Source: Marinobacterium mangrovicola (GTDB lineage: Bacteria; Pseudomonadota; Gammaproteobacteria; Pseudomonadales; Balneatricaceae). From it: 64,000 nt of DNA. Under the pieces are notes generated by a model, which saw only the letters and a program-made list of their open reading frames with translations, did not search any database and was not told the origin of the DNA. The translations under genes were made by a program, and so were the position numbers. Every line of letters begins with the position of its first letter. The stretch's first letter is position 1. Shown one piece after another: positions 41,603 to 60,907 of this stretch. The stretch spans positions 1,300,658-1,364,657 of the forward strand of contig NZ_SMFU01000007.1 in assembly GCF_004339595.1 (NCBI RefSeq), in the 5' to 3' direction.

Positions 41603-41611
41603 GGTGACAGC

Positions 41612-42376
41612 ATGTACGAATCACTACTCCACACTACCGACAAATATAATCTGGTCGCTGGCTTCGCCGTTATCGGCGTCACCATGTGGTTCTCCTACTG
41701 GATCTCCGGACGCTTCACCAAGGGCCGTATCCATGGCTCGGCGATTGCGATCCTGCTCGGCCTGACCATGGCCTACTTCGGCGGCGCCTTTACCGGCGGC
41801 GAGAAAGGTGTGGTCGATATACCACTGCTGTCAGGGATCGGCCTGCTGGGCGGCTCCATGCTGCGTGACTTCGCCATCGTTGCCACCGGCTTCGGAGTGA
41901 ATATCGACGAGCTGAAACGAGCCGGTATCACCGGTGTGATCGCCCTGGTGATGGGGATCTTCTCATCCTTCTTCGCCGGCGTGGCCGTGGCCATGGCGTT
42001 CGGTTACACCGATGCGGTGAGCCTGACCACCATCGGTGCCGGCACCGTGACCTATATCGTCGGCCCGGTCACCGGCGCGGCCCTGGGCGCAAGCTCTGAA
42101 GTGATGGCGCTTTCCATCGCTGCCGGCCTGGTGAAATCGATCCTGGTGATGATCGCCACACCGTTTGTGGCACCGATGATCGGCCTGAATTCACCGCGTA
42201 CCGCGGTTATCTTCGGCGGTCTGATGGGCACCTCCAGCGGCGTTGCCGCGGGCCTTGCTGCCACCGATCCTAAGCTTGTCCCTTATGGCTGTCTGACCGC
42301 CGCGTTCTACACCGCGCTGGGCTGCCTGCTGGGCCCGTCGATCCTGTTTATCATGATGCGTGCTATCGCCGGCTAA
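41612..42376 (+). CDS. madM: Malonate transporter subunit MadM
   Basis: A 254-residue membrane protein with about eight helices, rich in Gly. LTTIGAGTVTYIVGPVTGAALGASSEVMALSI and MGTSSGVAAGLAATDPKLVPYG are family segments, each given here from within a longer conserved run. It forms the importer with MadL. AAGGTG precedes the ATG, and a terminator follows at 42470. Confidence 0.9.
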   Translation: MYESLLHTTDKYNLVAGFAVIGVTMWFSYWISGRFTKGRIHGSAIAILLGLTMAYFGGAFTGGEKGVVDIPLLSGIGLLGGSMLRDFAIVATGFGVNIDELKRAGITGVIALVMGIFSSFFAGVAVAMAFGYTDAVSLTTIGAGTVTYIVGPVTGAALGASSEVMALSIAAGLVKSILVMIATPFVAPMIGLNSPRTAVIFGGLMGTSSGVAAGLAATDPKLVPYGCLTAAFYTALGCLLGPSILFIMMRAIAG

Positions 42377-42700: not shown

Positions 42701-43360
42701 TCATTGAACCGCATCCGGCTGTTGTTCAGGGGCGGCGTCAATAAAAGCCTCCAGGCTATTACACGCGGCCTCGATACGCAGCAGTGTCGGGAAAGCGGTC
42801 AGATCCACATCGAAACGGCGTGCATTATAGATCTGCGGTATCAGCGCGATGTCCGCCATTGTCGGCATATCTCCGTGGCAGTACTTACCGGTCTCTTCGG
42901 CGCCATCGAGAAGAGTCTCAAGGGCCGTGAACCCTTCGGTAATCCAGTGTCGATACCAGGTGTCGCGCGCCGCCTTGTCGACGTTCAGCTCTTTACCAAG
43001 ATATTGGAGCACGCGCAGGTTATTGACCGGATGTATATCACAGGCGATCACCTGTGCCAGCGAACGCACTCGTGCCCTCTCCAGGGCAGTTTCCGGCAGC
43101 AGCGGCACATGCGGATAAACCTCGTCCAGGTACTCGAGAATGGCCATTGACTGCGTCAGGATCTGTTCACCCTGCACCAGTGACGGCACCAGCTTCTGCG
43201 GATTGATACGCGCATATTCAGGCAGCTTCTGCTCGCCACCGTCGGCAATAAGGCTGACGGTTTTTGCGTTATAGGGGATCTTCTTCAGGTTTAATGCGAT
43301 GCGTACACGATAGGCAGCGGAGGATCGCCAATAGGTGTATAAGTCTAATTCTGCGGTCAT
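42701..43360 (-). CDS. maiA: Maleylacetoacetate isomerase (zeta-class GST)
   Basis: A 219-residue glutathione transferase from the ATG at 43360. The frame extends to 43510, but family sequence begins at DLYTYWRSSAAYRVRIALN, with the Ser-Ser-Ala zeta-class motif at about 14-16. The C-terminal domain holds DIHPVNNLRVLQYL. It converts maleylacetoacetate (or maleylpyruvate) to the fumaryl isomer using glutathione. It is the last gene of a minus-strand run with fahA upstream, which favours maleylacetoacetate. Confidence 0.92.
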   Translation of the reverse strand: MTAELDLYTYWRSSAAYRVRIALNLKKIPYNAKTVSLIADGGEQKLPEYARINPQKLVPSLVQGEQILTQSMAILEYLDEVYPHVPLLPETALERARVRSLAQVIACDIHPVNNLRVLQYLGKELNVDKAARDTWYRHWITEGFTALETLLDGAEETGKYCHGDMPTMADIALIPQIYNARRFDVDLTAFPTLLRIEAACNSLEAFIDAAPEQQPDAVQ

Positions 43361-43466
43361 CTGTATTGTTCCCGGTATCTCTACAAGCAAAATGAGAGGC
43401 CCTGCTGAACAGGGCCTCAAGTGCCTCACGAAAGCGTTACCCTTAAACCGACGCTCAACGTCGCTT

Positions 43467-44780
43467 TTATTTTGCGGGTAGCACCTTAGCGGTCGCTTCA
43501 CCAAAGCCAATGCGCGCGGCGCCTGAACGCTGACAAAACCCTTTCATAATCACGCTATCGCCGTCTTCCAGAAAGGCGCGGACTTCTCCGTTGGGCAGTG
43601 AAATCGGTTCTTTCCCGCCACGACTCAGCTCTAACAGCGATCCTGCCTCTTCCTGGGAAGGTCCGGACTGGGTACCACTGCCGAAGAAGTCTCCTGGCTG
43701 CAGGTTGCATCCGTTTACCGTGTGATGGGCAACCATCTGCCCGATGCTCCAGTAAGAATGACGAAAGTTAGTTTCACACAGTTTGTGGGCAGACAGGCCG
43801 GCAGAGCGCATCGCATCTGTTTCCAGGTACACTTCCAGGGCCATATCCATTCCACCGGACGCGCGGTTGGTCTCGGAATCCAGATAGGGTAATGGCTGAG
43901 GATCTGCGGCATCACGAGTCCACTCCGTCTGGTAGGGAGCCAGCGCTTCCAGGGTTACGATCCAGGGAGAAACGGTAGAGGCGAAGTTCTTGGACAGGAA
44001 TGGCCCCAGCGGCTGATATTCCCAGGCCTGGATATCGCGCGCTGACCAGTCATTGAAAAGACATAGCCCGAAAACGTGCTGATCAGCTTTATCCAGACCG
44101 ATCGGTTCGCCCAAATCATTACCGGCCCCAATATAGATGCCCACTTCCAGCTCATAATCGAGTCGGCGGCAAGGACCAAAACTTGGTTCTGCAGCGTCAG
44201 GGGCTTTCGTCTGGCCCTGAGGACGGCGGAACTCATGTCCGGAAACCTGTATCGACGAGGAGCGGCCATGGTAACCGATAGGCACCCATTTATAGTTCGG
44301 AAGCAAAGGGTTATCGGGCCGGAACAGGGAGCCCACACTGGTAGCGTGGTACACCGATATATAAAAGTCGGTGTAGTCTCCGATATGACAGGGAAGGCTG
44401 TATTCAACCTCAGCCTGGGGCACCAGGCAGGACGCCAAGCTCGCTTCCTCTTCAGAACCTTCACGCAATGCGCGCGACAGCTGCAGACGCAGTGCAGACC
44501 AGGCCTCCGCGCCCATCGACATGAACCGGTTCAGGCTATCGCTACTACAGGCCTGCAACGCTTCGGCAACCACCCCTGAGAACAGCCCCGTGGCATTCAG
44601 GGCCTTGAGATCGATTACCTGGTCACCGATGGCAACTCCGCCGCGGAACGCCTCGCCACTGCCTTGGCGTCGGAATACGGCGAACGGCAGATTTTGTATG
44701 GGAAAGTCGTTGTTGGGTTCATTGGCCGAACTAACCCAGCTGGTTAATCCGATGTCATGGGTTTCATTCAAGCTAATCAT
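43467..44780 (-). CDS. fahA: Fumarylacetoacetase
   Basis: A 437-residue protein from the ATG at 44780, the full length of true fumarylacetoacetases. It has the N-terminal SH3-like domain (PIQNLPFAVFRRQG) and the catalytic domain, with metal ligands in DYTDFYIS, DYELEVGIYIG and FNDWSARDIQAWEYQPLGPF. It cuts fumarylacetoacetate into fumarate and acetoacetate. Shorter FAH-family hydrolases lack the N-terminal domain, so the maleylacetoacetate branch rather than the gentisate route is favoured. maiA follows after 106 bases. Confidence 0.94.
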   Translation of the reverse strand: MISLNETHDIGLTSWVSSANEPNNDFPIQNLPFAVFRRQGSGEAFRGGVAIGDQVIDLKALNATGLFSGVVAEALQACSSDSLNRFMSMGAEAWSALRLQLSRALREGSEEEASLASCLVPQAEVEYSLPCHIGDYTDFYISVYHATSVGSLFRPDNPLLPNYKWVPIGYHGRSSSIQVSGHEFRRPQGQTKAPDAAEPSFGPCRRLDYELEVGIYIGAGNDLGEPIGLDKADQHVFGLCLFNDWSARDIQAWEYQPLGPFLSKNFASTVSPWIVTLEALAPYQTEWTRDAADPQPLPYLDSETNRASGGMDMALEVYLETDAMRSAGLSAHKLCETNFRHSYWSIGQMVAHHTVNGCNLQPGDFFGSGTQSGPSQEEAGSLLELSRGGKEPISLPNGEVRAFLEDGDSVIMKGFCQRSGAARIGFGEATAKVLPAK

Positions 44781-44852
44781 TATTTTAACTACCCGTTCGA
44801 TTTTCAATAAAAAGGTGCAGGGAGCCTGCTCAAGGCCACCCTGCCCTGTTGA

Positions 44853-45392
44853 TCAGTCGGTGAACTCAGTTTCGTGCAGCCATGCAGCATGTGTGGGGGC
44901 TTTTTTGGTGAGAGACCACTCTGCCAGCATTGCCGGCGCGACCTCTTTAAGCTGCTTCATCTGCTCGGGAGTACCGGTCTTGTAGGTCAGTTCGATGCGG
45001 TGGCCATTCGGGTCGAAGAAATAGATGGAGTGGATAATGCCGTGATTGGTGATGCCGAGTACGTCCAGCCCTTTGCCTTCCAGCTCAGCTTTAGCTTCCA
45101 GCAGCGCTTCCTTGTCCTCGACTTCAAATGCAATGTGCTGAACCCATTCCGGCGTATTCTCATCACGGCCCATTTCAGGTGAGTTAGGCAGTTCAAAAAA
45201 CGCCAGGATGTTGCCCTGACCCGCGTCCAGGAATAGATGCATGTAGGGGTCCGGCGCTTTTGTGGAGGGCACTCTGTCTTCTGCAATCGCGACGAGAAAA
45301 TCCATGTTCAGCATATTCTGGTAGAACTCGACGGTCTCTTTCGCATCTTTGCAACGATAAGCCACATGATGGATCTGCTTGATGTTGATCAT
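44853..45392 (-). CDS. One-domain VOC-family protein, possibly a ring-opening dioxygenase
   Basis: A 179-residue vicinal-oxygen-chelate protein. Candidate metal ligands are His8 or His9, His86 (VQHIAFEVED) and Glu134 (GHRIELTY), with DPNGH just before as in extradiol dioxygenases and glyoxalases. Length and two-module layout fit a single-domain VOC enzyme. It lies directly upstream of fahA and maiA on the same strand and behind three dyads. That position is where the ring-cleaving enzyme is normally found, yet no HmgA-type dioxygenase is present. It could instead be a hydratase, isomerase or glyoxalase. GGAGTG precedes the ATG. Confidence 0.8.
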   Translation of the reverse strand: MINIKQIHHVAYRCKDAKETVEFYQNMLNMDFLVAIAEDRVPSTKAPDPYMHLFLDAGQGNILAFFELPNSPEMGRDENTPEWVQHIAFEVEDKEALLEAKAELEGKGLDVLGITNHGIIHSIYFFDPNGHRIELTYKTGTPEQMKQLKEVAPAMLAEWSLTKKAPTHAAWLHETEFTD

Positions 45393-45432
45393 TAATCACT
45401 CCGGTCTTAATTCTTATTCGGAACACAATTTA

Positions 45433-45477
45433 GTAACAAACGTTACCATTACTGGTAATGATAGTAACACATGTTAC
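45433..45477. promoter_or_regulatory. Array of three 14-bp dyads upstream of the VOC-fahA-maiA genes
   Basis: GTAACAAACGTTAC (45433-45446), CATTACTGGTAATG (45447-45460) and GTAACACATGTTAC (45464-45477) are perfect or near-perfect dyads; the outer two share GTAAC-N4-GTTAC and are 31 bases apart, three helical turns. The array lies 41 to 85 bases before the VOC start. It is a strong operator candidate for a dimeric regulator, such as the MarR protein encoded at 52986 or an unlinked one. Confidence 0.75.
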
Positions 45478-45592
45478 TAAACTCAAGTCCCGGCCTGGCC
45501 TTTTTGCTTCTATTAATAGCGCTGCAAAAAAGCCACACCTGAGAGCTGGCCAGCGCCCCCAGAAGGAGCACCAGCCAGCTGCTCCGGGCTAA

Positions 45593-46555
45593 TCAGCCCT
45601 GCAACTTATCCCAGACTTCCTGATCGCGTTCGGCTGTCCAAACCCGCGGCCAGTCGATACCGTCGAACTCGTCCCAGATACGCTGAACATCAAACGGCAG
45701 GCAGTGTTCGAAGATCGGCCACATGCCATATTGCGGAGCCAAATGCTCATGCGTCGCTTCAAACGCCTCTTTCACGGTGCCGCCGCGGTTATAAACCTCA
45801 CCGACCTTCTCTTTCATGCCGTTCAGGAATCCGCGGGTCTGCTCGATAGCCGCGTCAACATTTTCACGGCCGTGTACCACCGCGCCGCGTCCGCCGACGA
45901 GAACCTCCGCCCCCAGGCTCTTCACTTTATCCAGGGTGTTGGTGGACCAATCGAAATGGAATGCATCACCGGTGTACAAGGCAGCTGCGGCTTCTACCAG
46001 ATCGCCCGCGAAAAGGATTTTCTGCTTGGGCAGCCAGGCGACAATGTCACCGGCCGTGTGGCCACGACCACAATATTCAAGCACCAGGCTGCCGCGATCC
46101 CCGCCGAGCGGAATCTCGAGACGGTCGTTGAAGACAATATCCGGGTGGGTCAGACCAGGGATGCTGTCAGGGTCACGGAACAGGCGAGGCATGCGGCCAT
46201 ACTCGCTGTGCCAATCCTCCATGCCCCGCTCCTCTACCAGGAACTTGGTCTTTTCGTGGGCAATAATACTTTCCGCATTGAATGCTGCAGCACCCAGAAC
46301 GCGTACCGCGTGGTAATGGGAAAGCACCAGATATTTGACAGGCTTATCGGTATGCTCGCGCAGCATCTCCAGCCAGTCACTGCCGGCCTTAGGTGTCGCG
46401 CGGGCCTCGAAAGCGATGATGAAGTCTTCCGCTTCGATCGCGCCAACATTGGGGTCGCCTTCAGCGGTCAGGGCGTACACACCCTCAGCCAGTACCTCGA
46501 GGGTTTCTTTCTTTTCGCCCAGATCTGCTGATGATGCAAAAGGTTTTTTAGCCAT
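45593..46555 (-). CDS. Metallo-beta-lactamase-fold protein with altered zinc motif
   Basis: A 320-residue protein of the MBL superfamily. The usual HxHxDH motif reads H80-Y-H82-A-V-R85: the Asp and third His are replaced, removing the normal second-metal ligands. GRGHTAGD near 167 and ILFAGDLVEA near 185 keep the other metal-site residues, and a late His-rich block (EATHEHLAPQYG) follows. A related SHYHAVRVLG motif may be typical of its subfamily. Hydrolysis of an ester, lactone or thioester in the pathway is possible. AGGTGA precedes the ATG. A perfect dyad ACCTATAA-N6-TTATAGGT (46604-46625) lies upstream. Confidence 0.8.
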   Translation of the reverse strand: MAKKPFASSADLGEKKETLEVLAEGVYALTAEGDPNVGAIEAEDFIIAFEARATPKAGSDWLEMLREHTDKPVKYLVLSHYHAVRVLGAAAFNAESIIAHEKTKFLVEERGMEDWHSEYGRMPRLFRDPDSIPGLTHPDIVFNDRLEIPLGGDRGSLVLEYCGRGHTAGDIVAWLPKQKILFAGDLVEAAAALYTGDAFHFDWSTNTLDKVKSLGAEVLVGGRGAVVHGRENVDAAIEQTRGFLNGMKEKVGEVYNRGGTVKEAFEATHEHLAPQYGMWPIFEHCLPFDVQRIWDEFDGIDWPRVWTAERDQEVWDKLQG

Positions 46556-46656
46556 GATTAATTCACCTGTTTTTTAGTTATTACCAGTAGGATCGATACA
46601 CCAACCTATAATCTCACTTATAGGTGCCTGTACTTTTTAAAGCTTGTATACGTTTT

Positions 46657-48000
46657 TTAACTGCTCAGATAATTTGGTAGCCAAAGAGCAAGCTGAGGGA
46701 AAACCAAAACACCAAGCAATACCATTAACTGAATGAGTACGAACGGGATCACGCCTTTATAGATATCGGTCATTTTCACCTCTGGCGGAGCAACACCCTT
46801 TAGATAGAAAAGTGCGTAGCCAAAAGGAGGCGTCAAAAATGAACTCTGCAGGTTTACTGAGAGCGCTATCGCAAACCAGATAAGTGTTTGCTCTGGCGGA
46901 ATTCCAAAATTTAGTTTGGCGATAATGGGAGCTACAATCGGCACGACTACAAGCACAATCTCGACCCATTCCATGAAGAACCCGAGAATAAATACCAGCA
47001 GCATAATCATGCCAAGCACGTAATAGGGTCCGGCACCATCAAGATGAAAGGCATCGGCGATCATTGCATCACCACCGAGCTTGCGAAATACAACGCTAAA
47101 CACAGTGGCTCCCATCATCACGAAAACAATCATTGCGGTCGTTTTCGTGGTTTGCATAAAGGTTTCTGACAGTATTTTTCTGCTCAGCCTTTTACCGAAA
47201 AGCGCAAATAACGTTGCGCCAAGTGCCCCGATTGCTGCGGATTCCGTAGGCGTGGCTACACCGGCGACAATTGTTCCCAGTACAGTCCCGATGAGCGCCA
47301 TCGGCGCAGCCAAATCAAATACCAGGGTTTTAATGCGACTCAATACAGGTTCATGACTGACAGAGCGCTCGGAAGGCATTTTTTCCGGCTGAAAGATCGC
47401 CACTAGCAGGATTACCAGCAGGTACAGCGCTCCCAGCAAAATACCTGGCCCCATTGCTGCCATAAACAGATCGCCGACAGATACGCGCAACTGATCCCCG
47501 AGAACAATCAGCATAATGCTGGGCGGTATGAGGATACCAAGGGTGCCGCTGGCTGCGATCAGGCCTGAAGACAAGCCCTTGTTATAGTTGTTCGCGAGCA
47601 TCGTCGGCAGCGCCATCATCCCCATCAACACCACTGAAGCACCAATAATGCCGGTCGACGCAGCCATCACAACACCGATGATGGCGACGGCAAAACCATA
47701 CCCGCCGGGAAAGCCACGAAAGAGCGAGGAGAGTGAACGCAAGAGGCGCTCAGCGACACCTGACCGTTCCAGCATCAACCCCATGAAAACAAACAGAGGG
47801 ATAGCGATCAGCAGCCAGTTAGTCAGTATTCCCGAGTAAATGCGGGATATGGTCAGGGACAGAAACAATATTGGAACATCACCCAGAAATGAGAAGATGA
47901 TCCCAACACCTGCCAATACGAATGCAACTGGATAGCCTGAAAAAATTCCAAGAATCAATGCAGCTAACATCAGCAGCGGCAACATATATTCAATCGTCAT
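46657..48000 (-). CDS. TRAP transporter large permease (DctM-like)
   Basis: A 447-residue permease with about 12 helices. SGTLGILIPPSIMLIVLGDQ and the GIIGASVVLMGMMALP segment are DctM hallmarks. With the small subunit and the binding protein encoded just upstream, it forms a complete tripartite ATP-independent importer driven by sodium. The start lies inside the end of the small-subunit gene. Its place in the cluster suggests it brings in the cyclic acid that the enzymes then process. Confidence 0.93.
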   Translation of the reverse strand: MTIEYMLPLLMLAALILGIFSGYPVAFVLAGVGIIFSFLGDVPILFLSLTISRIYSGILTNWLLIAIPLFVFMGLMLERSGVAERLLRSLSSLFRGFPGGYGFAVAIIGVVMAASTGIIGASVVLMGMMALPTMLANNYNKGLSSGLIAASGTLGILIPPSIMLIVLGDQLRVSVGDLFMAAMGPGILLGALYLLVILLVAIFQPEKMPSERSVSHEPVLSRIKTLVFDLAAPMALIGTVLGTIVAGVATPTESAAIGALGATLFALFGKRLSRKILSETFMQTTKTTAMIVFVMMGATVFSVVFRKLGGDAMIADAFHLDGAGPYYVLGMIMLLVFILGFFMEWVEIVLVVVPIVAPIIAKLNFGIPPEQTLIWFAIALSVNLQSSFLTPPFGYALFYLKGVAPPEVKMTDIYKGVIPFVLIQLMVLLGVLVFPQLALWLPNYLSS

Positions 48001-48568
48001 TGGATACCCCGCCTACTGATCCATTAGGCTTTCCAAACAGTACAAAGAAGCCATCGATCACTCGGGTTAAAACAGCGATCATAAAAATCGATGCGGATAG
48101 AGGAAGACAGGCTTTTATCACCCATCGATCCTGCAAACCGCCATAGGTAGACCCTTCGCCGCTTAAAAACGAGGTATAGGCGAACTTCGATCCGTAGAAG
48201 ACAATAATCAATAGAAACGGTGTAAGAAAAAACAGATCGCCTAGCAAGCCAACGACTGCTTTCTTTTTTAGTGAAAATCCATTTGAAAACAAATCAACTT
48301 TTACATGCTGATTATCGATATAGGAACAAACACCACCAAAAAGCACTACCAGAGCAAAAATATACCACTGAAAATCCAAAAGACTATTTAGAGTCAGGGC
48401 ATCACCCAGCAGAAAAATTTCATTATCCCACTCAAACAACTGGTTAATGCCAAACTTCGCACCTAAAACCCCAACACAGATAATAATTATCAGGGGAAAT
48501 ATGAGCCAACCGGATATATATGCCGGAAGCGAACAGATATCTCGAATCTTTCTTGTAAATGACAGCAT
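47990..48568 (-). CDS. TRAP transporter small permease (DctQ-like)
   Basis: A 192-residue protein with four predicted helices. I use the ATG at 48568, with GGGTGA in front, over an in-frame GTG at 48577. The LLDFQWYIFALVVLFGGVCSYIDNQHVKVDLF region is the DctQ family core, split here by a short loop. It overlaps the large-permease gene by 11 bases. Confidence 0.9.
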   Translation of the reverse strand: MLSFTRKIRDICSLPAYISGWLIFPLIIIICVGVLGAKFGINQLFEWDNEIFLLGDALTLNSLLDFQWYIFALVVLFGGVCSYIDNQHVKVDLFSNGFSLKKKAVVGLLGDLFFLTPFLLIIVFYGSKFAYTSFLSGEGSTYGGLQDRWVIKACLPLSASIFMIAVLTRVIDGFFVLFGKPNGSVGGVSNDD

Positions 48569-48618
48569 GATAATCACCCGAATACTGGAAGAACGCCTTT
48601 GCCCATCCTTTCCAACGG

Positions 48619-49659
48619 TCAGTTGGGCATTCTTTGTAACGTTTCCCAGTGGCCGACAGATTCCATGTAGTCAGTGAGCGACTGATAAGCTTCAGCGAAA
48701 ATTGGGTCTTTCCTGGACTCGTCTTCAAGGACCTCTACCGAAGCCTGTTTAATCGCTTTGAGGACATCGTCGGGGAACCTGCGGACGGTGACACCGGCAG
48801 CACGAATAGTATCGAGCGCTGCGGCCTGAGACTGGACCTGGTCTGCCAGGTTATCCATGATGTTGGCTTTGCAGGAGTTTTCCATTGCCTGCTGGTCAGC
48901 CTCGGAAAATCCGTTCCAGACATCCATGTTAATGATGACAGTGTCCCAGCTAGAGGGCTGATGCCATCCAGGGAAGTAATAATTTTTTACGATTTTTTGA
49001 AAGCCGAAACCCACATCCAGCTGAGGGGCCGAAAACTCCGTGGCATCGATACGACCTGTTTCCAGTGAAACATACACTTCACCGGCCGGAACAAGTTGCG
49101 TATTCGCTCCAAGCTTAGCGAGCGCCTTACCACCTAAACCAGCAATACGCATGTTGAGACCTTTAAAGTCATCAACAGTATTTATCTCTTTATTAAACCA
49201 GCCACCCGCTTCAGGTACTACGAGATGACACGGCAGTACTTTAACGTTATAGGGATCATAGGCCTTCTGGATAATCTCCAGACCACCGCCCTGGAACATC
49301 CAGGCAAGCGCAATATCCGGTGTCGGGCCAAAAGGCATAGATCCAATTAGGTTAGCGACGGGTATCTTTTCAGACCAATACCCCATCCAGTCAAATCCCA
49401 TAGGAATAGCACCGATACTAACGGCTTCGAACACCTCAAAAGGCGGCACGAAATCACCTGCGCCGTGAACATTGATCTCGATGTTTCCGCCGGTCGATTC
49501 TGAGACGCGCTCAGCCCAGTGGACGGGGCTCTTGCCGATCGAGGGAACATGCAAACCAAAAGTACTCTGTAAATCGTAGCTTTGAGCACTCGCACCCGTT
49601 GCAGTCGATACTGCAATTGCTCCAGCAAAAGCGGCACCCAGCATAGAATTCTTATTCAT
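48619..49659 (-). CDS. TRAP transporter substrate-binding protein (DctP-like)
   Basis: A 346-residue periplasmic protein from the ATG at 49659, with AAGGTAAG in front; the frame upstream is not family-like. A signal peptide ends ASA-QS at about residue 25. The mature protein has SIGAIPMGFDWMGYW and, in the second lobe, LNMRIAGLGGKALAKLGANTQLVPAGEVYVSL followed by RIDATEFSAP, where the TRAP-conserved Arg binds the ligand carboxylate. The ligand should therefore be an organic acid. It belongs to the group with a W-rich site found for cyclic or aromatic acids and oxo acids. Confidence 0.9.
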   Translation of the reverse strand: MNKNSMLGAAFAGAIAVSTATGASAQSYDLQSTFGLHVPSIGKSPVHWAERVSESTGGNIEINVHGAGDFVPPFEVFEAVSIGAIPMGFDWMGYWSEKIPVANLIGSMPFGPTPDIALAWMFQGGGLEIIQKAYDPYNVKVLPCHLVVPEAGGWFNKEINTVDDFKGLNMRIAGLGGKALAKLGANTQLVPAGEVYVSLETGRIDATEFSAPQLDVGFGFQKIVKNYYFPGWHQPSSWDTVIINMDVWNGFSEADQQAMENSCKANIMDNLADQVQSQAAALDTIRAAGVTVRRFPDDVLKAIKQASVEVLEDESRKDPIFAEAYQSLTDYMESVGHWETLQRMPN

Positions 49660-49852
49660 TTTCTTACCTTTTATAATTTTTATCAGTAACTCTGAAACGA
49701 TAGATCCATTTAAAAACATGGGATCCGTCACAACTGATTAAAATCTCAAACCACACATCCAAAAATTCATTCAGATAGAAACGATGATCTATAAATTTGA
49801 TTTAATATCGAGCACTGAGGTTAAGTTAATCCTCAGTGCTCGAATCAGCTGA

Positions 49853-51559
49853 CTAGGGTGTAACTCCTGCCATATGGTTAGCAGCGATATAGCCAAAGGT
49901 GAGCGCCGGCCCCAGGGTGATTCCGCCGCCGGGGTAATTACCGCCCATAATGCTTGCGGCATCATTCCCCGATGCGTATAGCCCTTTTATTGGACTACCT
50001 TCGCTATCCAGAACCTGCGAATTTTCGTTGCAGCGCAAACCGGCAAACGTACCCAAATCACCGATGACCAGCTTAACGGCGTAGTAAGGGCCTTTACGTA
50101 TCGGTGCCACGCAGGGGTTCGGCTTGTGATCGGGATCACCCAGGGAACGGTTATAAGCGGTGGTACCCTTGCCGAATTCAGGATCTTCACCGTTAACTGC
50201 ATGCTTATTAAATTCAGCGACGGTTGCTTCAAGCTGAGTCGGATCTGCACCGATCTGCTCGGCCAGTTCACGCAGTGTTTTCCCGCGCATCAGGTAGCCG
50301 GTTTTCAACTGACTGCGATAAGGCATGGGCGCCGGCTTGGCGAAGCCGAGGCCGTAACGGCGGAAGGTTTTATGGTCAGCGATGAAGTAAGCACAGATTT
50401 CGCCCTCCTCTTCCGTACAGCGGTCGTACATCGCCTGGCAGAAGTCGTGGTAAGAGTTCGACTCGTTGACGAAGCGACGACCCGAACGGGTGACCGCGAT
50501 GATTCCCGGCTTTGAGCGATCCACAAAGTGCGGGAATGTTCCGGTTGTTCCGTCAGCCCAGACAGGGCGGGAGATAGGCACCCACGCTGCCGGATGAGGC
50601 AGATCTTCCTTGACAGTAGCACCAACCGACTCGCCCAAACGCAGACCGTCACCGGTGTTGCCCATAGGCGCAGGAGAGGCGTGCTCATGGCCAGTCGGCG
50701 CATGCCTGAAGAGCTTTTTCCTGCGTACTGCGTCTTGCGGGAAACCGCCACAGGCCAGAACAACACCTCTGCGAGCAACGACCTCAACACGCCCTTTCGT
50801 CGTATCCACAAGCGCGCCCTGGACCTCACCACTCTCTGCCCGAATCAGCTTCGCGACGGGAGAACGCGTCCAGATAGGTACATTTTTTTCAAAGCAGGAC
50901 TTTGCCAGTCTTCCGATCAACGCATTACCGTTCATCAGTCGCATGGCGCGGCCATGGAAGGTTACGTCGCGCATGAACTTGGCGAACAGAAACCCAACAT
51001 AACTGGCGGATATAACGGATCTTGTCGCATTAAAGAAGTGCAGCAGTTCCTTGCCTGATCCGATCATCATCCCCAGAACAGTGATTTCCCTCAGCGGCGG
51101 ACGCAGGCGTTTTATTTCCTTACCGAGATCACGGCCGTCAAAGGGTTTAGCCACAATGGAGCGCCCCCCCGGCATCCCACCCTCGACCAGTGGATGGTAG
51201 TCGGAAAAAGTCGGGCCAAGATCAAATTGCAGACTGGTGTTTTTCTCGAAAAAGTCGACGGCTTTTGGACCGGCGTCCAAAAAGGCATTGATTCGCGATT
51301 CGTCGAAAAAAGCACCCGTTTCATGCTTCAGATAGGTCCTGGCGGCATCAGCAGAGTCGTTTACTCCGTCTCGCTGACCCGGTGCATTTCCGGGAATCCA
51401 CATCCAGCCACCTGATCTGGCGGTAGTGCCGCCAAACACCGGTTCCTTTTCGACCACGAGAACCTTCAATCCTTTATGGGCTGCCGATACGGCGGCTGAC
51501 AGACCACCAGCGCCAGAACCCACGACCAACACATCACATTCGTATTTTATTGTTTTCAC
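49853..51559 (-). CDS. KstD-like FAD-dependent ketone dehydrogenase
   Basis: A 568-residue flavoprotein of the fumarate reductase/3-ketosteroid-1-dehydrogenase family. The start is a GTG at 51559 with AGGAG eight bases upstream; a longer frame to 51604 lacks a site. VVGSGAGGLSAAVSAAHKG binds FAD near the N-terminus. The C-terminus ends NYPGGGITLGPALTFGYIA, the motif that in KstD holds the catalytic Tyr and Gly next to the flavin. Relatives remove hydrogen beside a ring ketone, including steroid and 4-oxocyclohexane-carboxylate substrates. With the TRAP genes downstream, it probably desaturates an imported alicyclic keto acid. Confidence 0.88.
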   Translation of the reverse strand: MKTIKYECDVLVVGSGAGGLSAAVSAAHKGLKVLVVEKEPVFGGTTARSGGWMWIPGNAPGQRDGVNDSADAARTYLKHETGAFFDESRINAFLDAGPKAVDFFEKNTSLQFDLGPTFSDYHPLVEGGMPGGRSIVAKPFDGRDLGKEIKRLRPPLREITVLGMMIGSGKELLHFFNATRSVISASYVGFLFAKFMRDVTFHGRAMRLMNGNALIGRLAKSCFEKNVPIWTRSPVAKLIRAESGEVQGALVDTTKGRVEVVARRGVVLACGGFPQDAVRRKKLFRHAPTGHEHASPAPMGNTGDGLRLGESVGATVKEDLPHPAAWVPISRPVWADGTTGTFPHFVDRSKPGIIAVTRSGRRFVNESNSYHDFCQAMYDRCTEEEGEICAYFIADHKTFRRYGLGFAKPAPMPYRSQLKTGYLMRGKTLRELAEQIGADPTQLEATVAEFNKHAVNGEDPEFGKGTTAYNRSLGDPDHKPNPCVAPIRKGPYYAVKLVIGDLGTFAGLRCNENSQVLDSEGSPIKGLYASGNDAASIMGGNYPGGGITLGPALTFGYIAANHMAGVTP

Positions 51560-52088: not shown

Positions 52089-52859
52089 ATGCAACTGACA
52101 ACAAGCAGTGAGATCTTGCAGAACTTAGGCAGCCCCCCCTTTCTGATCGCATGCCTGGCGGCCATGTGCGTCGGGATGGCAAAGGGAGGCGTGCCAACGA
52201 TCGGCATGCTCGCCGTTCCCGTTATTTCACTGGCGGTATCCCCAATCAAGGGAGCCGCCATTCTCCTGCCCATTTTTATACTGACCGATATGGTCAGCGT
52301 ATGGCTTTACCGACGCTCATTTTCCAAGCCCAATCTGAAAATTCTGATCCCTGCCGGATTAATGGGCGTAGCAGTCGGCTGGGCCACGGCTTCAGTAATC
52401 TCTGACAAGGTGGTTTCGATACTGATTGGCGTACTGGGGATCGCCTTCTGTTGTCATACCTGGTTCGGCAAGGTTTACCTGACAAGACCGAAGCAACCTA
52501 CGCTGGGCAGAGGTATGTTGTGGGGAAGTTTGGCGGGGTTTACCAGTTTTATCTCTCATGCCGGATCGCCGCCGTACCAGATCTACGTTATCCCTCAGCG
52601 TCTGGAGAAACTGACTTTTGTTGGCACTACCGCCGTGGTGTTTGCAGCTATCAATCTGGCAAAGGTTATTCCTTACGCCAACCTGAGGCCCTATAGCGCT
52701 GAAGATCTAACCCTGGCGCTTTGGCTGATCCCGACCGCACTGGCGGGCACCTTTTTCGGCGCCTTTTTGATTAGACGCCTCGCCGATGTCTGGTTTTCCA
52801 GGTTGATTCAGGCTGGTCTGCTACTGGTGTCGATCAAGCTCCTCGTTCAGGCGGTTTAG
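52089..52859 (+). CDS. TauE/SafE-family anion exporter
   Basis: A 256-residue membrane protein with about eight helices, starting at the ATG at 52089 behind AAGGA; the longer frame is not supported. MAKGGVPTIGMLAVPVISLAV and FISHAGSPPYQIYVIP are the two family motifs at the start of each half. TauE members export sulfite or sulfoacetate-type anions. Here, in a catabolic cluster, export of an organic acid or sulfur-containing product is possible. Confidence 0.88.
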   Translation: MQLTTSSEILQNLGSPPFLIACLAAMCVGMAKGGVPTIGMLAVPVISLAVSPIKGAAILLPIFILTDMVSVWLYRRSFSKPNLKILIPAGLMGVAVGWATASVISDKVVSILIGVLGIAFCCHTWFGKVYLTRPKQPTLGRGMLWGSLAGFTSFISHAGSPPYQIYVIPQRLEKLTFVGTTAVVFAAINLAKVIPYANLRPYSAEDLTLALWLIPTALAGTFFGAFLIRRLADVWFSRLIQAGLLLVSIKLLVQAV

Positions 52860-52985: not shown

Positions 52986-53447
52986 TCAGCGATCCTGATT
53001 CGCGAGATGCACGTCAACCTTGTCGAGCAGGTTCTTGAGCGTCGACTGTTCGGCAGGTGTGAGACAAGAGAGTATGTCACGCTCCTTATCCATCACCTTC
53101 GGCACAATATCGTTGTAAACCTCGATCCCCTTGGCCGACAGCCGGTAATAAATGGCGCGTTTATCCTCTGGATCTGGCATGGCAACCAGCAAGTCTGCAG
53201 CCCTCAAACGCTGAACAGCACGGCTGACCTGCATTTTTTCCAGCTTCGTAAAGCTGGCTATATCGGTTGCTGTTATCGGTTGCAACAGTGCCAGCGTTGC
53301 CATCGCACGCCAGTCGTTTCTCGACAGGCTGTACAGGTCCTTATAGGGCTTCGCTACTGACTGACTGACTCTCTGCTCGAGAATAGACAAGCGGTAAGGG
53401 AAAAAATCCAGAAGCTCGAGTTTATTGATAATGTTCGGATCATTCAT
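52986..53447 (-). CDS. MarR-family transcriptional regulator
   Basis: A 153-residue regulator with the MarR winged helix at about 55-105: LLQPITATDIASFTKLEKMQVSRAVQRLRAADLL and DKRAIYYRLSAKG at the wing. Such proteins often sense aromatic acids. The genes on either side (TauE-like, OYE) are divergent or lie in the same cluster, so it is the best local candidate for the operators at 45433 and 51713. Confidence 0.88.
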   Translation of the reverse strand: MNDPNIINKLELLDFFPYRLSILEQRVSQSVAKPYKDLYSLSRNDWRAMATLALLQPITATDIASFTKLEKMQVSRAVQRLRAADLLVAMPDPEDKRAIYYRLSAKGIEVYNDIVPKVMDKERDILSCLTPAEQSTLKNLLDKVDVHLANQDR

Positions 53448-53993: not shown

Positions 53994-55151
53994 ATGAGCG
54001 ACCAGCCAGCAAGTACGTTACTTCAACCCTTCACTCTGCGCGGCCTGACACTTAAAAATCGCATGGTTATCTCGCCGATGTGCCAGCATGCCGCAATAGA
54101 CGGACAGGTTCAGGACTGGCACCTGGTTCACTATGGCAAATTCATTCTCGGCGGCGCGGCGCTGGTCTGGACCGAAAGCACAGCGATCGCTTCCGACTCC
54201 AGAGTCGGTATCGCGGATCTCGGTATCTGGAGTGATGACCATATTGAGGGGCTGCGCAAGTTAGCCGACTTCGCCCATAACAATGGCGCCCTGATGGGGG
54301 TGCAACTGGCGCATGCTGGACGCAAAGCGTTTTCCGCACCTTTGTGGGAGGGTGGCCACGCCCTGTCCCCTGAAGAGATCAATCAATACGACATCAAGTG
54401 GCGCCGGGTCGGCCCCAGCGCCATTGCGGCGAGTAGTGAGTGGAGCACCCCCGACACGCTTAGCGTTGATGAGATGTCAGAGATTCGCCAACAGTTTGTT
54501 GACGCCGCGTTACGCGCAGACGCTGCAGGTATGGATGCAATCGAATTGCACTATGGACACGGCTATCTCATCGCCAGTTTTCTATCGCCTCATGCCAACC
54601 ACCGTCAGGATGAATACGGTGGAACGCTTGAAAACCGCATGCGCTACGCGCTTGAAATTGCACAGGCTACAAGGGCGGCCTGGCCTTCTGACAAACCACT
54701 CTTTGTGCGCCTCTCCTGCATTGATGGCGTCGAGGGAGGCTGGGACCTTAACGACTCGGTCATCCTCGCCCGGGAGTTAAAAGCGATCGGTATCGATGTG
54801 ATCGACTGCTCGTCCGGGGGGCTAGCTGAAGAGGTAAAGCGCAGTAACGTCCCCCGCGGCATCGGGTTTCAGGTGCCCTTCGCAGCAGAAATACGAGAGC
54901 AGGCAGCTATTGCGACTCAAGCCGTTGGACTGATCGTCAGCGCAGAACACGCCAATGACATCATTTCCACGGGCCAAGCGGATCTAGTTGCCGTGGGACG
55001 AGCCGCATTGCGTAACCCCTACTGGCCAGCCGAAGCCTATCGAACACTGAGCGATACAGACGAGTTTGATGCCTGGCCCGAACGTCATGGCGCCTGGCTT
55101 GATAAACGTCAGCCGCTGTTGCGCCGTTTTGTTGGCGACAAAGCCAACTGA
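53994..55151 (+). CDS. Old Yellow Enzyme family NADH:flavin oxidoreductase (XenA/YqjM-like)
   Basis: A 385-residue FMN enzyme from the ATG at 53994, behind AGGA; the frame to 53904 is not family-like. MVISPMCQHAAIDG holds the Cys of the XenA/YqjM class, followed by QLAHAGRKA and the catalytic HYGHGYLIASFLSPHANHRQDEYGG region, which is broken up by substrate-loop residues. These enzymes reduce activated C=C bonds of enones. In this cluster it would act on a cyclic enone, in the opposite sense to the KstD-like enzyme or on a different intermediate. Confidence 0.9.
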   Translation: MSDQPASTLLQPFTLRGLTLKNRMVISPMCQHAAIDGQVQDWHLVHYGKFILGGAALVWTESTAIASDSRVGIADLGIWSDDHIEGLRKLADFAHNNGALMGVQLAHAGRKAFSAPLWEGGHALSPEEINQYDIKWRRVGPSAIAASSEWSTPDTLSVDEMSEIRQQFVDAALRADAAGMDAIELHYGHGYLIASFLSPHANHRQDEYGGTLENRMRYALEIAQATRAAWPSDKPLFVRLSCIDGVEGGWDLNDSVILARELKAIGIDVIDCSSGGLAEEVKRSNVPRGIGFQVPFAAEIREQAAIATQAVGLIVSAEHANDIISTGQADLVAVGRAALRNPYWPAEAYRTLSDTDEFDAWPERHGAWLDKRQPLLRRFVGDKAN

Positions 55152-55212: not shown

Positions 55213-55905
55213 ATGATAAGTCGCTTTGGGCTACTGAAACGCAAAGCCGGTATGACCTCAACCACGTTCAACGAACACTGGAAAAAATCGCATGGACCTC
55301 TGGCGGCTCAATTCCCCGGGTTAAAACAGTACGACCAGCATCGAGTAACCGATAAAGAGCATTTCGGCATTGACCATACACGCGGTGGCTGGGATCTCGA
55401 TGGCTTCTCGGAGCTACAGTTCGACAGTCTGGAAGCGATGAAACACGCAATCGACTCCAGCGCTTTTGCAAATGCCGTATCCGATGAAAATGCGTTTCTG
55501 GATGATCTTCGATTAGCGATTTGTGAAAAGCATACGGTCGTTCCACTTAACCTCGGCGACCAGCCCTACATCAAGCGTATGACGCTGCTGAAGCGGCTGC
55601 CGGGAATCTCCCCCGAAGAATTCCGCCATGAATGGCTCGTCAAACACGCTGAGTGGGTATCCCAGTGGCCCAATGTACTGGGCTATACACAGAATCTTGT
55701 CATTGACCGCTATTACAACTCCCGCACCGACAGCGCAGATTATGACGATGTGCCGTTCGATGGGATTGTCGAGTTCTGGTTCCGGAATAAAGAAGAAGCC
55801 GCAAAGCTCTATGCCAGTGATATCGTGACGCGCACTCAGCAACACGCACTGGAGTTTCTTGACGAAATCACGCCGTTCTTTGTCGAAACAGACAACATTA
55901 TTTAA
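55213..55905 (+). CDS. Double EthD-domain protein
   Basis: A 230-residue protein with two EthD-like units. The first begins ISRFGLLKRKAGMTSTTFNEHWKKSHG, the second IKRMTLLKRLPGISPEEFRHEWLVKHAEW at about residue 120. Each unit has the W-x2-xH motif of the ferredoxin-like alpha+beta barrel. EthD proteins accompany oxidative degradation of ethers and aromatic compounds, often without a known reaction. The start at 55213 has AGGAG in front. The OYE gene ends 61 bases upstream, so the two are probably one transcript. Confidence 0.85.
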   Translation: MISRFGLLKRKAGMTSTTFNEHWKKSHGPLAAQFPGLKQYDQHRVTDKEHFGIDHTRGGWDLDGFSELQFDSLEAMKHAIDSSAFANAVSDENAFLDDLRLAICEKHTVVPLNLGDQPYIKRMTLLKRLPGISPEEFRHEWLVKHAEWVSQWPNVLGYTQNLVIDRYYNSRTDSADYDDVPFDGIVEFWFRNKEEAAKLYASDIVTRTQQHALEFLDEITPFFVETDNII

Positions 55906-55909
55906 GCAA

Positions 55910-58039: not shown

Positions 58040-59149
58040 TTATTTCACGAAGATTTCATTAAGCTTTTCAGGCGGAAGGCTGGATGACAGGTCCGCATCC
58101 AGAGGGGCATCTTTGCTGCATTTAGGATCGATGCCAGCAGCACTATCCGCGTAAACAAATGGCATCACGCTTAGAGGTTCTGAATTTTCCGTTCCCTGAA
58201 AATTGGCAACCGCACGACGCGCAGCAAAGCGCACTGTTGAGGTCGTACCGTCAAGCGAGAAATAGGAGAACCCCTCTCCCTTTGCCTTTTTATCGAGATA
58301 TTTGCAGTTAAGCTCGTTATTACTTGCATTGGTCGCCAATGCCGGCACCTCCAGTCCAGCCTGTTCGTAGGCCTTCACGACCGAGGTAGCGGTCACGCCG
58401 AAGTCAGTAGCGATGCCATCGATATCCGGATATTTCGCGATCAACCCGCTGACCGCCTTTTGTGCATCCACCGGGTTCCAGTTTGTAACGATGTAGTTGT
58501 CTTCGATGAGGTTGAGACCCGGATATTTGGCCAAACCATCTCTGAAGCCATCAAAGAAATTCTGTGAGGAGCTCGCCCCAGCACTGCCACCGAGCATGAC
58601 GACATTACCGGTTTTAAGGTTTTTGCCGTACCAGTCAGCCCAGACCTGTGCCATCTGATAGGTGTCTTCATAGACGTTTGCGCTGTAATCCTTACCGGGC
58701 TTGCCCCCTATTTTGGCCAGGTAGGGTACAACGGTCACATCGTACTTCGTCGCGGAACGCATGGCCGGCAACTGAGCCGCCCCGAAGTCAGGAAAAACGA
58801 GCAGCAGATCAACACCTTGCGCGACCATGCTATTGATATCAGATTTTGCTTTCTGCTGGTTTCCGTTGGCGTTGGTATACATGATCTTTTCAACGTTAGG
58901 GCATTTGCTTAGCTCATCCTCTAGCTCGGCAAGTGCTATACGACGCCAGGTATTACCACCATAACCGTCCGAAAGACCCACTTTCATCGGTTTAGTACCG
59001 CACATCGCTGTGATGTCGGCCCCGTCCTGCATATTTGCCGGTGTCTGATTGGCCATCACCGTGCCGGCATACACCGTCGCAACCATCGGCACAGCGGCCA
59101 CCAGGCTTCGGTTTATACGCGAGAACAGCTTTTTCTTGGGATGGGTCAT
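58040..59149 (-). CDS. Sugar-type ABC substrate-binding protein without partners
   Basis: A 369-residue periplasmic protein from the ATG at 59149, behind GGAG. The signal sequence has a twin-charge start and a hydrophobic stretch (AAVPMVATVYAGTVMA), ending near residue 33. The mature part is a Peripla_BP_4 fold: KVGLSDGYGGNTWRRIALAELE, the DINSMVAQGVDLLLVFPD hinge and VVMLGGSAGASSSQNFFDG. No ABC permease or ATPase gene is in the window. It sits next to an aldehyde and an alcohol dehydrogenase, so it may sense or bind the related substrate. Confidence 0.85.
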   Translation of the reverse strand: MTHPKKKLFSRINRSLVAAVPMVATVYAGTVMANQTPANMQDGADITAMCGTKPMKVGLSDGYGGNTWRRIALAELEDELSKCPNVEKIMYTNANGNQQKAKSDINSMVAQGVDLLLVFPDFGAAQLPAMRSATKYDVTVVPYLAKIGGKPGKDYSANVYEDTYQMAQVWADWYGKNLKTGNVVMLGGSAGASSSQNFFDGFRDGLAKYPGLNLIEDNYIVTNWNPVDAQKAVSGLIAKYPDIDGIATDFGVTATSVVKAYEQAGLEVPALATNASNNELNCKYLDKKAKGEGFSYFSLDGTTSTVRFAARRAVANFQGTENSEPLSVMPFVYADSAAGIDPKCSKDAPLDADLSSSLPPEKLNEIFVK

Positions 59150-59389: not shown

Positions 59390-60907
59390 TTACTCGCCCA
59401 GGTAAACACCGACCGATTTGTTTTCGGTGTACTGCTCGAGACCGGCGAGACCCATCTCGCGACCCCAGCCAGATTGCTTGTAGCCACCGAACGGCAATGC
59501 CGCATCGGTCTGGTTGTGGTTGTTTACCCAAACGACGCCTGCACGCACCTTGGCGGCCATCTGGTGAGCGATACTCAGGTCACGGGTCCAGATACTGGCA
59601 GCCAGACCGTATGACGAGTTATTGGCCTCCTGAACGAGCCCCTTCATATCACCGGAGTCAAACTTCATGGCGCAGATAACAGGGCCGAAGATCTCTTCGT
59701 GATAAACCTTCATGCTGGAGTTAACATCGGCCAGCACGGTCGGACGGATAAAGTAACCTTCGCTACCCGGCATCTCCACATCGCCCTGCATCACCTTCGC
59801 GCCTTCATCGATACCAGACTGCAGCAGGCTGCTGACACGGGCGTGCTGACGCGCCGAAATCAAAGGCCCCATGTTGGTGTTCGGATCAAGGCCGTGGCCA
59901 AGCTTCAGTGAAGAGGTATATTCAGCAACACCGGCGACCACCTCGTCATAGATATCCTCATGGATATAGAGACGTGATCCGGCAGTACAGGCCTGACCGC
60001 TGTTGAACATTACGGCTTGGGCAACACCCGGAATGGCTTTTTCCAGATCCGCATCTGGGAAGACGATGACCGGGCTCTTACCACCCAGCTCCAGACTTAC
60101 ACGCTTCAGGTTTGAGGCCGCGGCTCGTACGATCGCTTTACCCGTCTCGGTACTGCCGGTGAATGCAATCTTATCGACATCCGGATGATCAACCAGAGCC
60201 TGACCTGCGGCTCCTGCACCGGTAACAACGTTAAGCACGCCATCCGGCAACCCGGCTTCACGACAGATCTCGGCAAAGCGCAGCGCCGTCAGCGGAGTAT
60301 CTTCCGCCGGTTTCAAGACGATGGTGCAGCCCGCGGCCAGCGCAGGAGACACCTTCCAGGCCGCCATCAGCAGAGGCACGTTCCAGGGAATAATCTGGCC
60401 GACCACGCCAACAGGCTCGCGAAGCGTATAGCTGTGCCACTGGCCCGCCATATTGGTTGGCACGGTACTACCGGTCAGTTTATTCGCCCAACCGGCGTAG
60501 TAGCGGAAATGGTCCGCCGCCAACTTGACGTAGAAGTTCTTACAGATACCGAACGGAGAGCCCTCGTCCAGCGTTTCCAGCTCTGCCAGTTCCTGCGCGT
60601 TCTCATCGATCAGTTCACCGATTCTCCAAACGATCTTGGCCCGGTCGTTGGTGGACATCCGGCTCCACTCGCTGTCTTCAAACGCTTTGCGCGCCGAGCG
60701 GACAGCGATGTCGATATCGGCCGCATCACCCTCTGCCATGGTGGAGATAATCTGTCCGGTTGCCGGATCTTCTACATTCCGGGTGCCGCCGTTAACCGGC
60801 GCTTCCCATTTACCGTTGATAAAAAGGCTGTGTTTACGTGCAAGAAACTGCTTCGCTACATCAGAAATACCAGCCAGCGGATTGTCAAAAGTAAATATCT
60901 GGTTCAT
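59390..60907 (-). CDS. Aldehyde dehydrogenase, NAD(P)-dependent
   Basis: A 505-residue ALDH from the ATG at 60907, behind GAAGAG; the longer frame to 61003 is not family-like. WNVPLLMAAWKVSPALAAG, SLELGGKSP with the catalytic-base Glu at about 266 and FNSGQACTAGSRLY with the nucleophile Cys at about 300 are intact. It oxidises an aldehyde to the acid. With the GMC dehydrogenase gene 120 bases upstream, it completes a two-step alcohol oxidation. Specificity cannot be told from sequence. Confidence 0.93.
   Translation of the reverse strand: MNQIFTFDNPLAGISDVAKQFLARKHSLFINGKWEAPVNGGTRNVEDPATGQIISTMAEGDAADIDIAVRSARKAFEDSEWSRMSTNDRAKIVWRIGELIDENAQELAELETLDEGSPFGICKNFYVKLAADHFRYYAGWANKLTGSTVPTNMAGQWHSYTLREPVGVVGQIIPWNVPLLMAAWKVSPALAAGCTIVLKPAEDTPLTALRFAEICREAGLPDGVLNVVTGAGAAGQALVDHPDVDKIAFTGSTETGKAIVRAAASNLKRVSLELGGKSPVIVFPDADLEKAIPGVAQAVMFNSGQACTAGSRLYIHEDIYDEVVAGVAEYTSSLKLGHGLDPNTNMGPLISARQHARVSSLLQSGIDEGAKVMQGDVEMPGSEGYFIRPTVLADVNSSMKVYHEEIFGPVICAMKFDSGDMKGLVQEANNSSYGLAASIWTRDLSIAHQMAAKVRAGVVWVNNHNQTDAALPFGGYKQSGWGREMGLAGLEQYTENKSVGVYLGE

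Follow-up and report, generated by a model that had tools for sequence, protein, structure and literature searches.

A probable alicyclic entrance to the homogentisate pathway, with a one-domain VOC protein in the place of HmgA, in Marinobacterium mangrovicola

Tyrosine breakdown runs through homogentisate as its hub, and HppD and MhaA are known bacterial entrances to this compound. To our knowledge such entrances are few, OhpA standing beside these two. The homogentisate pathway of Pseudomonas putida has a 3-hydroxyphenylacetate branch. The canonical form of that pathway (hmgABC, hpd) is cited in the part of PMC7646211 consulted, and in the consulted part of PMC8449657 OhpA, a CYP116B, is described as converting 2-hydroxyphenylacetate to homogentisate in Cupriavidus pinatubonensis. 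Here we analyse a 64,000-nucleotide stretch of Marinobacterium mangrovicola (contig NZ_SMFU01000007.1, positions 1,300,658 to 1,364,657; hereafter the window) in which a minus-strand run at 42701-51559 joins genes for a KstD-like dehydrogenase, a TRAP importer, an MBL-fold protein, a one-domain VOC protein, fumarylacetoacetase (fahA) and maleylacetoacetate isomerase (maiA). Each of the eight genes is an intact open frame on that strand, and the family assignments made in a sequence-only reading of the run hold. Our comparisons suggest that the locus probably joins the central homogentisate pathway to a peripheral alicyclic route, with homogentisate as the entry point. The reactions in this strain, the substrate and the direction of transport we infer from sequence comparison.

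Sequence and predicted fold make it very probable that the VOC protein is the ring-opening enzyme of the locus, a homogentisate 1,2-dioxygenase of one domain. Its closest solved relative is PDB entry 9u42, both in a phmmer search (E 1e-82) and in a Foldseek search (E 4e-24; 69% identity over 169 columns) with the AlphaFold model of the protein, which has a predicted local distance difference test score (pLDDT) of 88.8. Further fold matches, at E 1.7e-9 and weaker, include the L-DOPA dioxygenase 6on1. The title of 9u42, released 2025-07-23, reads 'Crystal Structure of Homogentisate 1,2-Dioxygenase from Acinetobacter'. Residues H8, H9, H86, H117 and E134 are invariant in the 20 and 31 VOC rows aligned; two of the histidines and the glutamate we take to be the metal ligands, and presumably they fit the extradiol signature. 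We infer that the protein opens homogentisate to maleylacetoacetate in place of the cupin HmgA, in keeping with the non-standard ring-opening enzyme that the sequence-only reading had supposed. In the plasmid records compared, the gene is annotated 'VOC family protein'. The VOC enzyme itself is already in a structure deposit; the alicyclic entry route is the new part.

The lack of canonical hmgA and hpd genes, claimed earlier for the window, extends to the whole source genome (a 4.98 Mb assembly, 99.6% complete). No match to hmgA (TIGR01015) was found anywhere in it, and no match to hpd exceeded the TIGR01263 cut-off; nor was hpd found at E 1e-60 in the source genome or in its close relative G041. 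Two weak HPPD-like matches were rejected. The first is a QuiC-like fused 3-dehydroshikimate dehydratase (629 bits to QuiC, cut-off 1200, versus 164 bits to HPPD); the second is a 280-residue protein (120 bits to QuiC versus 91 to HPPD, below both cut-offs) that is 41% identical to the fused protein over 139 residues. We note that the fused protein adjoins an apparent split version of itself, the 280-residue protein and a 304-residue xylose-isomerase-like protein encoded in opposite directions. An MhaA-type 3-hydroxyphenylacetate hydroxylase was not found at E 1e-40 among the candidates scored (12 of 23 in the source genome and 12 of 29 in G041). The query was a Sphaerotilus protein that we take to be MhaA-like from its DUF2783 neighbour; its Roseomonas relative is an FAD_binding_3 protein. 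The VOC-fahA-maiA set is kept in both genomes although neither hpd nor MhaA was found at the limits used. We also looked for the opposite picture, a normal tyrosine pathway elsewhere in the genome with the VOC and KstD-like genes unconserved, and did not find it.

The distribution of the VOC protein is consistent with a dioxygenase that stands in for HmgA. We compared 116 genomes of the GTDB family, counting the VOC protein at 246 bits or more and hmgA and hpd above their cut-offs. The VOC protein is present in 61 of the 116 and hmgA in nine. Among the 50 genomes with hpd, 42 have the VOC protein without full-length hmgA, four hmgA only, three both and one neither; G034, counted among the 42, shows a partial hmgA match below cut-off (428 bits), and recounting it as hmgA-bearing gives 41 with VOC only and four with both. 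The 56 genomes with fahA divide in the same order into 46, five, four and one. Full-length fahA is missing from 11 of the VOC-bearing family genomes and hpd above cut-off from 16, but each of them has at least one of the two. Across the class we sampled 369 genomes (E limits 1e-60 and 1e-30), of which 56 have an hpd match: 31 of these carry hmgA, nine the VOC protein (two of the matches being weak, at 165-170 bits), none both and 16 neither.

Gene neighbourhoods give a similar picture. A wider contig collection contains at least 591 confirmed VOC stretches, of which 80 were analysed, mostly from Gamma-, Alpha- and Betaproteobacteria and Bdellovibrionales. These loci contain hppD in 42 cases, an FAH gene in 34, maiA in 28 and any of the three in 54, counts that depend on the stretch length of 5.4-16.5 kb and include some loci from the same genomes as the family set; hmgA, searched with one query protein, is in none of the 80 stretches. 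In stretches of up to 20 kb from 40 of the 60 other VOC-positive family genomes, fahA and/or maiA occur in 27 and both in 16. The association of VOC, FahA and MaiA is not chance. Gene orders vary, for example fahA-maiA-VOC-iclR-hppD in Acinetobacter baumannii and hppD-VOC-fahA in Ideonella. The VOC gene stands twice in tandem in one family genome (G108:C2:50084-51424), and VOC genes are also found on conjugative-type plasmids of Acidovorax (IncP, L094) and Enterobacter (IncFII, L098), in the latter with an FAH-family gene and maiA.

The KstD-like protein lies above the cut-off of the broad PRK06134 subfamily and below the steroid-dehydrogenase equivalog cut-offs (PRK07843, 463 bits with a cut-off of 788; PRK12844, 488 and 789; PRK12845, 389 and 793). 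It also stays below the cut-off for ChcC2, a 4-oxocyclohex-2-ene-1-carboxylate 5-dehydrogenase (585 bits, cut-off 900), and scores 347 bits against 7p18, a 3-oxosteroid 1-dehydrogenase. In an alignment of the protein to 4c3x, the motifs that we take to contain the catalytic Tyr, Tyr, Tyr and Gly of KstD1 show tyrosine opposite tyrosine and glycine opposite glycine. We propose that the enzyme would desaturate or aromatise a cyclohexanone-type acid.

A KstD-like gene lies near homogentisate genes in 6 of 11 plasmid loci compared, there with the cupin HmgA instead of the VOC protein. The closest plasmid relatives of the window protein (72.9% identity) are those of Rhizobium AB2/73 and Agrobacterium S7/73, whose islands have the same gene set; counting the two islands once changes the figure to 5 of 10. 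On the Rhizobium plasmid (pAtAB2-73d) a marR-hmgA pair is located 27 kb from the KstD island, and in Rhizobium, Agrobacterium and Neorhizobium hmgA appeared only in an extra stretch. The other loci with a KstD-like gene and hmgA-fahA-maiA are those of Roseomonas marmotae, Paraburkholderia PGU19, Neorhizobium petrolearium and Pontibrevibacter nitratireducens; in Pontibrevibacter a TRAP importer adjoins the KstD-like gene. Across Alpha-, Beta- and Gammaproteobacteria, then, a KstD-like gene turns up repeatedly close to homogentisate genes, and the dioxygenase is not always the same. MhaA-like matches were seen in only two of the KstD islands, those of Roseomonas marmotae and Neorhizobium, and the route in the other islands would therefore have to yield homogentisate without that hydroxylase. 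In a tree of 21 KstD rows the window protein groups with those of G041, Agrobacterium and Rhizobium with full support. The homogentisate-linked rows need four label changes, against a mean of 6.7 on shuffling (8 of 500 shuffles went as low), a count that near-copies among the rows help to keep low, and as a whole they are not one clade. It follows that the link of KstD to homogentisate is clustered, but was gained or lost more than once, or that neighbours beyond the fetched stretches were missed. As far as gene neighbourhoods indicate, the KstD-fed entrance is a recurring variant, undescribed in the literature searched: in titles and abstract starts, with subscription journals thinly covered, we found no VOC-type homogentisate dioxygenase, no alicyclic route to homogentisate and no '9u42'.

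These observations suggest the following route. The TRAP system and/or a sugar-type ATP-binding cassette (ABC) system would import an alicyclic compound that probably bears a two-carbon side chain. Alcohol and aldehyde groups of side chain and ring would be oxidised by a GMC alcohol dehydrogenase, an aldehyde dehydrogenase (ALDH) and a short-chain dehydrogenase/reductase (SDR), and the ring would be dehydrogenated to homogentisate by the KstD-like enzyme, with an Old Yellow Enzyme (OYE) homologue and an EthD protein assisting. The VOC protein, replacing the cupin HmgA, would convert homogentisate to maleylacetoacetate; MaiA would isomerise this and FahA would split the product into fumarate and acetoacetate. 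The MBL protein, which accompanies several such clusters, could open a lactone, although this is a guess. A C6-C2 substrate fits since the ALDH is closest to phenylacetaldehyde dehydrogenase. Entry at homogentisate had been one of two possibilities raised by the sequence-only reading, and it is favoured by the title of 9u42, by the VOC genes near hppD, fahA and maiA, and by the KstD-like genes near cupin HmgA elsewhere.

Several points weigh against the joined pathway. The 11 plasmid loci were chosen by hand, most of them from the head of a list of 75 records (E 1e-120), and their flanks were unequal, 8-15 kb for the five unlinked loci and wider for several of the linked ones. Those five, from Roseomonas gilardii, P. 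largidicola, Nitratireductor, Variovorax and Haematobacter, show no homogentisate genes in those flanks. Eight records carry KstD-like and fahA genes at least 63 kb apart (best places, compared by eye): Cupriavidus necator N-1, two C. metallidurans, Gemmobacter, P. caribensis MBA4, two P. largidicola and Paraburkholderia 22B1P. This comparison covered the best 60 of 75 and the best 60 of 119 records, and one record is also among the five unlinked. Within the family, 16 other genomes with a KstD-like gene (E 1e-100) have no full-length fahA listed within 300 kb on the same contig. As for the neighbourhood search proposed earlier, for KstD-like, fahA and VOC genes together, the KstD-like gene does occur with homogentisate genes in the plasmid loci described above, but near the VOC gene in only 1 of 40 family relatives, the near-identical G041. 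The crystal structure 9u42 was solved with zinc and is known here by its deposit title only. The replacement of hmgA by the VOC gene is not exclusive, since both enzymes are missing from 16 of the 56 class genomes with hpd and some family genomes carry the two together. The genomes in the co-occurrence table are related rather than independent, so that Fisher tests on it are merely descriptive. A scan for promoters and terminators gave signals at chance level and was not used as evidence. Two observations stand beside these counts. On the Haematobacter plasmid (L215 7136-11725) pobA and a NIPSNAP gene are close neighbours of the KstD-like gene, an arrangement suggestive of a parallel aromatisation that ends at 4-hydroxybenzoate. 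A family genome has a weak 88-bit hmgA-like match in a 383-residue frame (G018:C7:106741-107598); given this match and the 16 class genomes with neither enzyme, a third type of homogentisate dioxygenase may exist.

The unlinked and widely separated KstD-like genes are what one would expect if the VOC-type homogentisate pathway started from an ordinary aromatic acid such as 2- or 3-hydroxyphenylacetate, by way of a P450 or some other hydroxylase encoded elsewhere, the KstD-like, TRAP and remaining genes forming a separate alicyclic or steroid-fragment pathway alongside. Three P450 matches in the source genome also speak for such a feeder and against the joined pathway, as does the precedent of OhpA. 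One of the three is a fused P450-reductase-ferredoxin (L217 370-2661), the P450 part of which is closest to CYP199A and not CYP116B; two full-length structures of fused P450s, 6laa and 6kbh, which we take to be CYP116B of the OhpA type, rank behind the CYP199A match. With MhaA and hpd not found at the limits used, and with the KstD-like gene recurring near homogentisate genes in three proteobacterial classes beside different dioxygenases, we regard the aromatic feeder as unlikely, though it is the alternative to be taken most seriously.

A more specific form of the joined pathway can be sketched. The rengyol/halleridone class has a six-carbon ring with a two-carbon side chain, and the cluster might degrade a cyclohexylethanoid of this class, of plant or marine type, to homogentisate. 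The GMC and ALDH enzymes would turn the CH2CH2OH side chain into CH2COOH, the SDR would form the ring ketone and the KstD-like enzyme would add both double bonds, giving a quinol-acetate dienone. An MmlI-like half of the EthD protein would then shift the acetate side chain one carbon along, which yields homogentisate. The idea arises from two sources: the records of the two closest KstD-like plasmid relatives give Phyla canescens as the isolation source of the bacteria, and Phyla nodiflora, of the same genus, is reported to contain halleridone in the consulted parts of PMC3524650 and PMC4129175. The C-terminal half of the EthD protein is weakly like methylmuconolactone methyl-isomerase (MmlI, 31.1 bits versus a Pfam cut-off of 29.6), and the score against the NCBIfam MmlI model is 39.3 bits, below its cut-off of 180. 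As a strong feature of the EthD family the match was rejected: four of six relatives tested fall below the Pfam cut-off and two have no match, so that the window protein alone exceeds it. The MmlI-like activity of this half is kept as speculation only, and we consider the halleridone scheme as a whole improbable. If it is true, homogentisate would be reached by a new enzymatic route around 4-hydroxyphenylpyruvate dioxygenase.

The sequence-only reading had also allowed for a different ring. The VOC protein would then open another hydroquinone, substituted or with a longer chain, and MaiA and FahA would act on a maleylacetoacetate analogue. With no hpd found in the source genome, the VOC protein need not be tuned to homogentisate, and the VOC-family enzymes LinE and PcpA cleave other hydroquinones (AromaDeg, PMC4250580, in the part consulted). 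Set against this, the window protein is 75-99% identical to the 16 family VOC proteins whose stretch has both fahA and maiA, hppD accompanies more than half of the 80 VOC loci, and FahA is above its equivalog cut-off. Five other islands, moreover, have the KstD-like gene close to cupin HmgA, and the VOC protein is an ortholog of a deposited homogentisate dioxygenase. A different hydroquinone is for these reasons quite improbable, and homogentisate remains our preferred entry point.

The pyomelanin literature bears on the activity of the VOC protein. In the consulted part of PMC7646211 the pigmented A. baumannii strain AB4353 forms pyomelanin from homogentisate; its authors found no hmgA homologue and judged from sequence that a gene for a type I ring-cleaving dioxygenase, located between hmgC and hmgR, was inactive. 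This gene is taken to be the VOC gene, since in the A. baumannii record that we examined the VOC gene sits between maiA and an IclR-type regulator. For the intact VOC family our comparison points to the opposite of that judgement. In the part of PMC9431530 consulted, disrupting an A. baumannii gene called hmgA led to pyomelanin and supplying the gene abolished the pigment; the text consulted identifies this gene by the name 'hmgA' alone. The hmgA reference in the consulted part of PMC11945678 has 633 bp, the length of A. baumannii maiA (L093 8339-8971), so that gene names in this literature look confused and are unsafe as evidence on the VOC gene. That the VOC protein is a mere accessory of the homogentisate pathway, an isomerase or glyoxalase beside an unrecognised true dioxygenase, draws on the inactivity judgement of 2020, but this rests on sequence comparison in a pigmented strain, and the title of 9u42 and the replacement of hmgA in both presence and place make such a role very improbable.

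The functional set probably reaches beyond the minus-strand run, upstream to 52089-62728 on both strands and past the window end (Table 1). Relatives of the MarR protein occur in 28 of the 40 family VOC stretches (27 at 32-45% identity, G041 at 98%), which makes it a likely regulator of the cluster. MBL relatives are found in 7 of the same 40 stretches (45-86% identity; G041 99%) and also on KstD plasmid islands (44-66%); a fold prediction for the MBL protein made without an alignment was poor (pLDDT 45) and was left unused. The TauE protein has relatives of 34-37% identity in the Rhizobium and Neorhizobium islands. OYE relatives lie near KstD in Variovorax (58%) and, as a fragment, in Roseomonas marmotae (52%), and reach only 26-27% in Rhizobium. 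For the TRAP binding protein DctP, the ketoacid-binding protein 7ug8 is the third-best solved relative. Elsewhere in the window, the stretch 34978-42373 encodes a malonate decarboxylase (mdcA, mdcB-type, beta and gamma subunits, mdcH) and, after it, the malonate transporter genes madL and madM, all seven above curated cut-offs.

Table 1. Coordinates of the proposed gene set within the window, with the model scores that underlie each assignment.
Feature	Position	Strand	Evidence and remarks
maiA, maleylacetoacetate isomerase	42701..43360	-	TIGR01262 306.8 bits, cut-off 171; start codon inferred
fahA, full-length fumarylacetoacetase	43467..44780	-	TIGR01266 547.5 bits, cut-off 375.3; N- and C-terminal Pfam domains
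One-domain VOC protein, 179 aa, proposed type I extradiol homogentisate 1,2-dioxygenase	44853..45392	-	Pfam Glyoxalase 59.6 bits
MBL-fold hydrolase, putative lactone/ester hydrolase	45593..46555	-	Pfam Lactamase_B 48.4 bits
dctM, TRAP large permease	46657..48000	-	TIGR00786 303.6 bits, above cut-off
dctQ, TRAP small permease	47990..48568	-	Pfam DctQ 48.6 bits
dctP, TRAP binding protein	48619..49659	-	Pfam DctP 137.7 bits
KstD-like FAD dehydrogenase, 568 aa	49853..51559	-	PRK06134 800.9 bits, cut-off 747
TauE/SafE-family membrane protein, possible exporter/co-transporter	52089..52859	+	Pfam TauE 96.2 bits
marR, probable regulator of the cluster	52986..53447	-	Pfam MarR
OYE-family flavoenzyme	53994..55151	+	Pfam Oxidored_FMN 224.4 bits
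Two-domain EthD protein	55213..55905	+	Pfam EthD 92.5 bits; start codon inferred from frame
Periplasmic sugar-type binding protein	58040..59149	-	Pfam Peripla_BP_4 121.9 bits
Aldehyde dehydrogenase (ALDH)	59390..60907	-	Best curated match StyD (phenylacetaldehyde dehydrogenase), NF045735 608.3 bits, below cut-off 850
GMC alcohol dehydrogenase, choline-dehydrogenase-like	61028..62728	-	PRK02106 677 bits, above cut-off

If the KstD-based entrance is real, some bacteria reach homogentisate from non-aromatic rings, and part of the large family of unassigned KstD-like proteins gains a testable function. The results also support a widespread non-cupin homogentisate dioxygenase. When the VOC enzyme is overlooked, Acinetobacter and many other proteobacterial genomes seem to lack a complete tyrosine breakdown; for work on pyomelanin the result matters in that one paper (PMC7646211, in the part consulted) judged such a gene inactive.

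Compared with the described systems, the locus shares with the Acinetobacter enzyme 9u42 a one-domain VOC protein, and the gene of the A. baumannii ortholog stands with fahA, maiA and hppD; here no hppD was found and the VOC gene sits with MBL, TRAP and KstD-like genes. The canonical pathway of P. putida is matched in MaiA and FahA, both above curated cut-offs, whereas its cupin HmgA, hpd and MhaA were not found here. The aromatisation of cyclohexanecarboxylate by ChcB/ChcC (NF053676, NF053677, NF053701) has a partial counterpart in the ChcC2 score of the KstD-like protein and in an SDR just outside the window, for which ChcB2 (172 bits) is one of many SDR models matched; both scores are below the cut-offs (350 for ChcB2), and the product here would enter homogentisate, not 4-hydroxybenzoate. 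The Rhizobium AB2/73 island has relatives of the KstD-like (73%), GMC (71%), ALDH (65%), MBL (46%), FahA (44%), MaiA (48%) and binding (53-54%) proteins, as well as of TauE and EthD, and its ABC transporter is 53-63% like one just outside the window in the source genome. It differs in having cupin HmgA and genes for a CoA transferase and a thiolase, with no VOC or TRAP match in the fetched stretches. The plasmid of Pontibrevibacter nitratireducens likewise brings together an SDR, a KstD-like protein (54%), a TRAP importer, fahA, maiA and a homogentisate dioxygenase, but there the dioxygenase is the cupin HmgA, the regulators are of the MarR and IclR types, and no GMC or ALDH match lies in the stretch.

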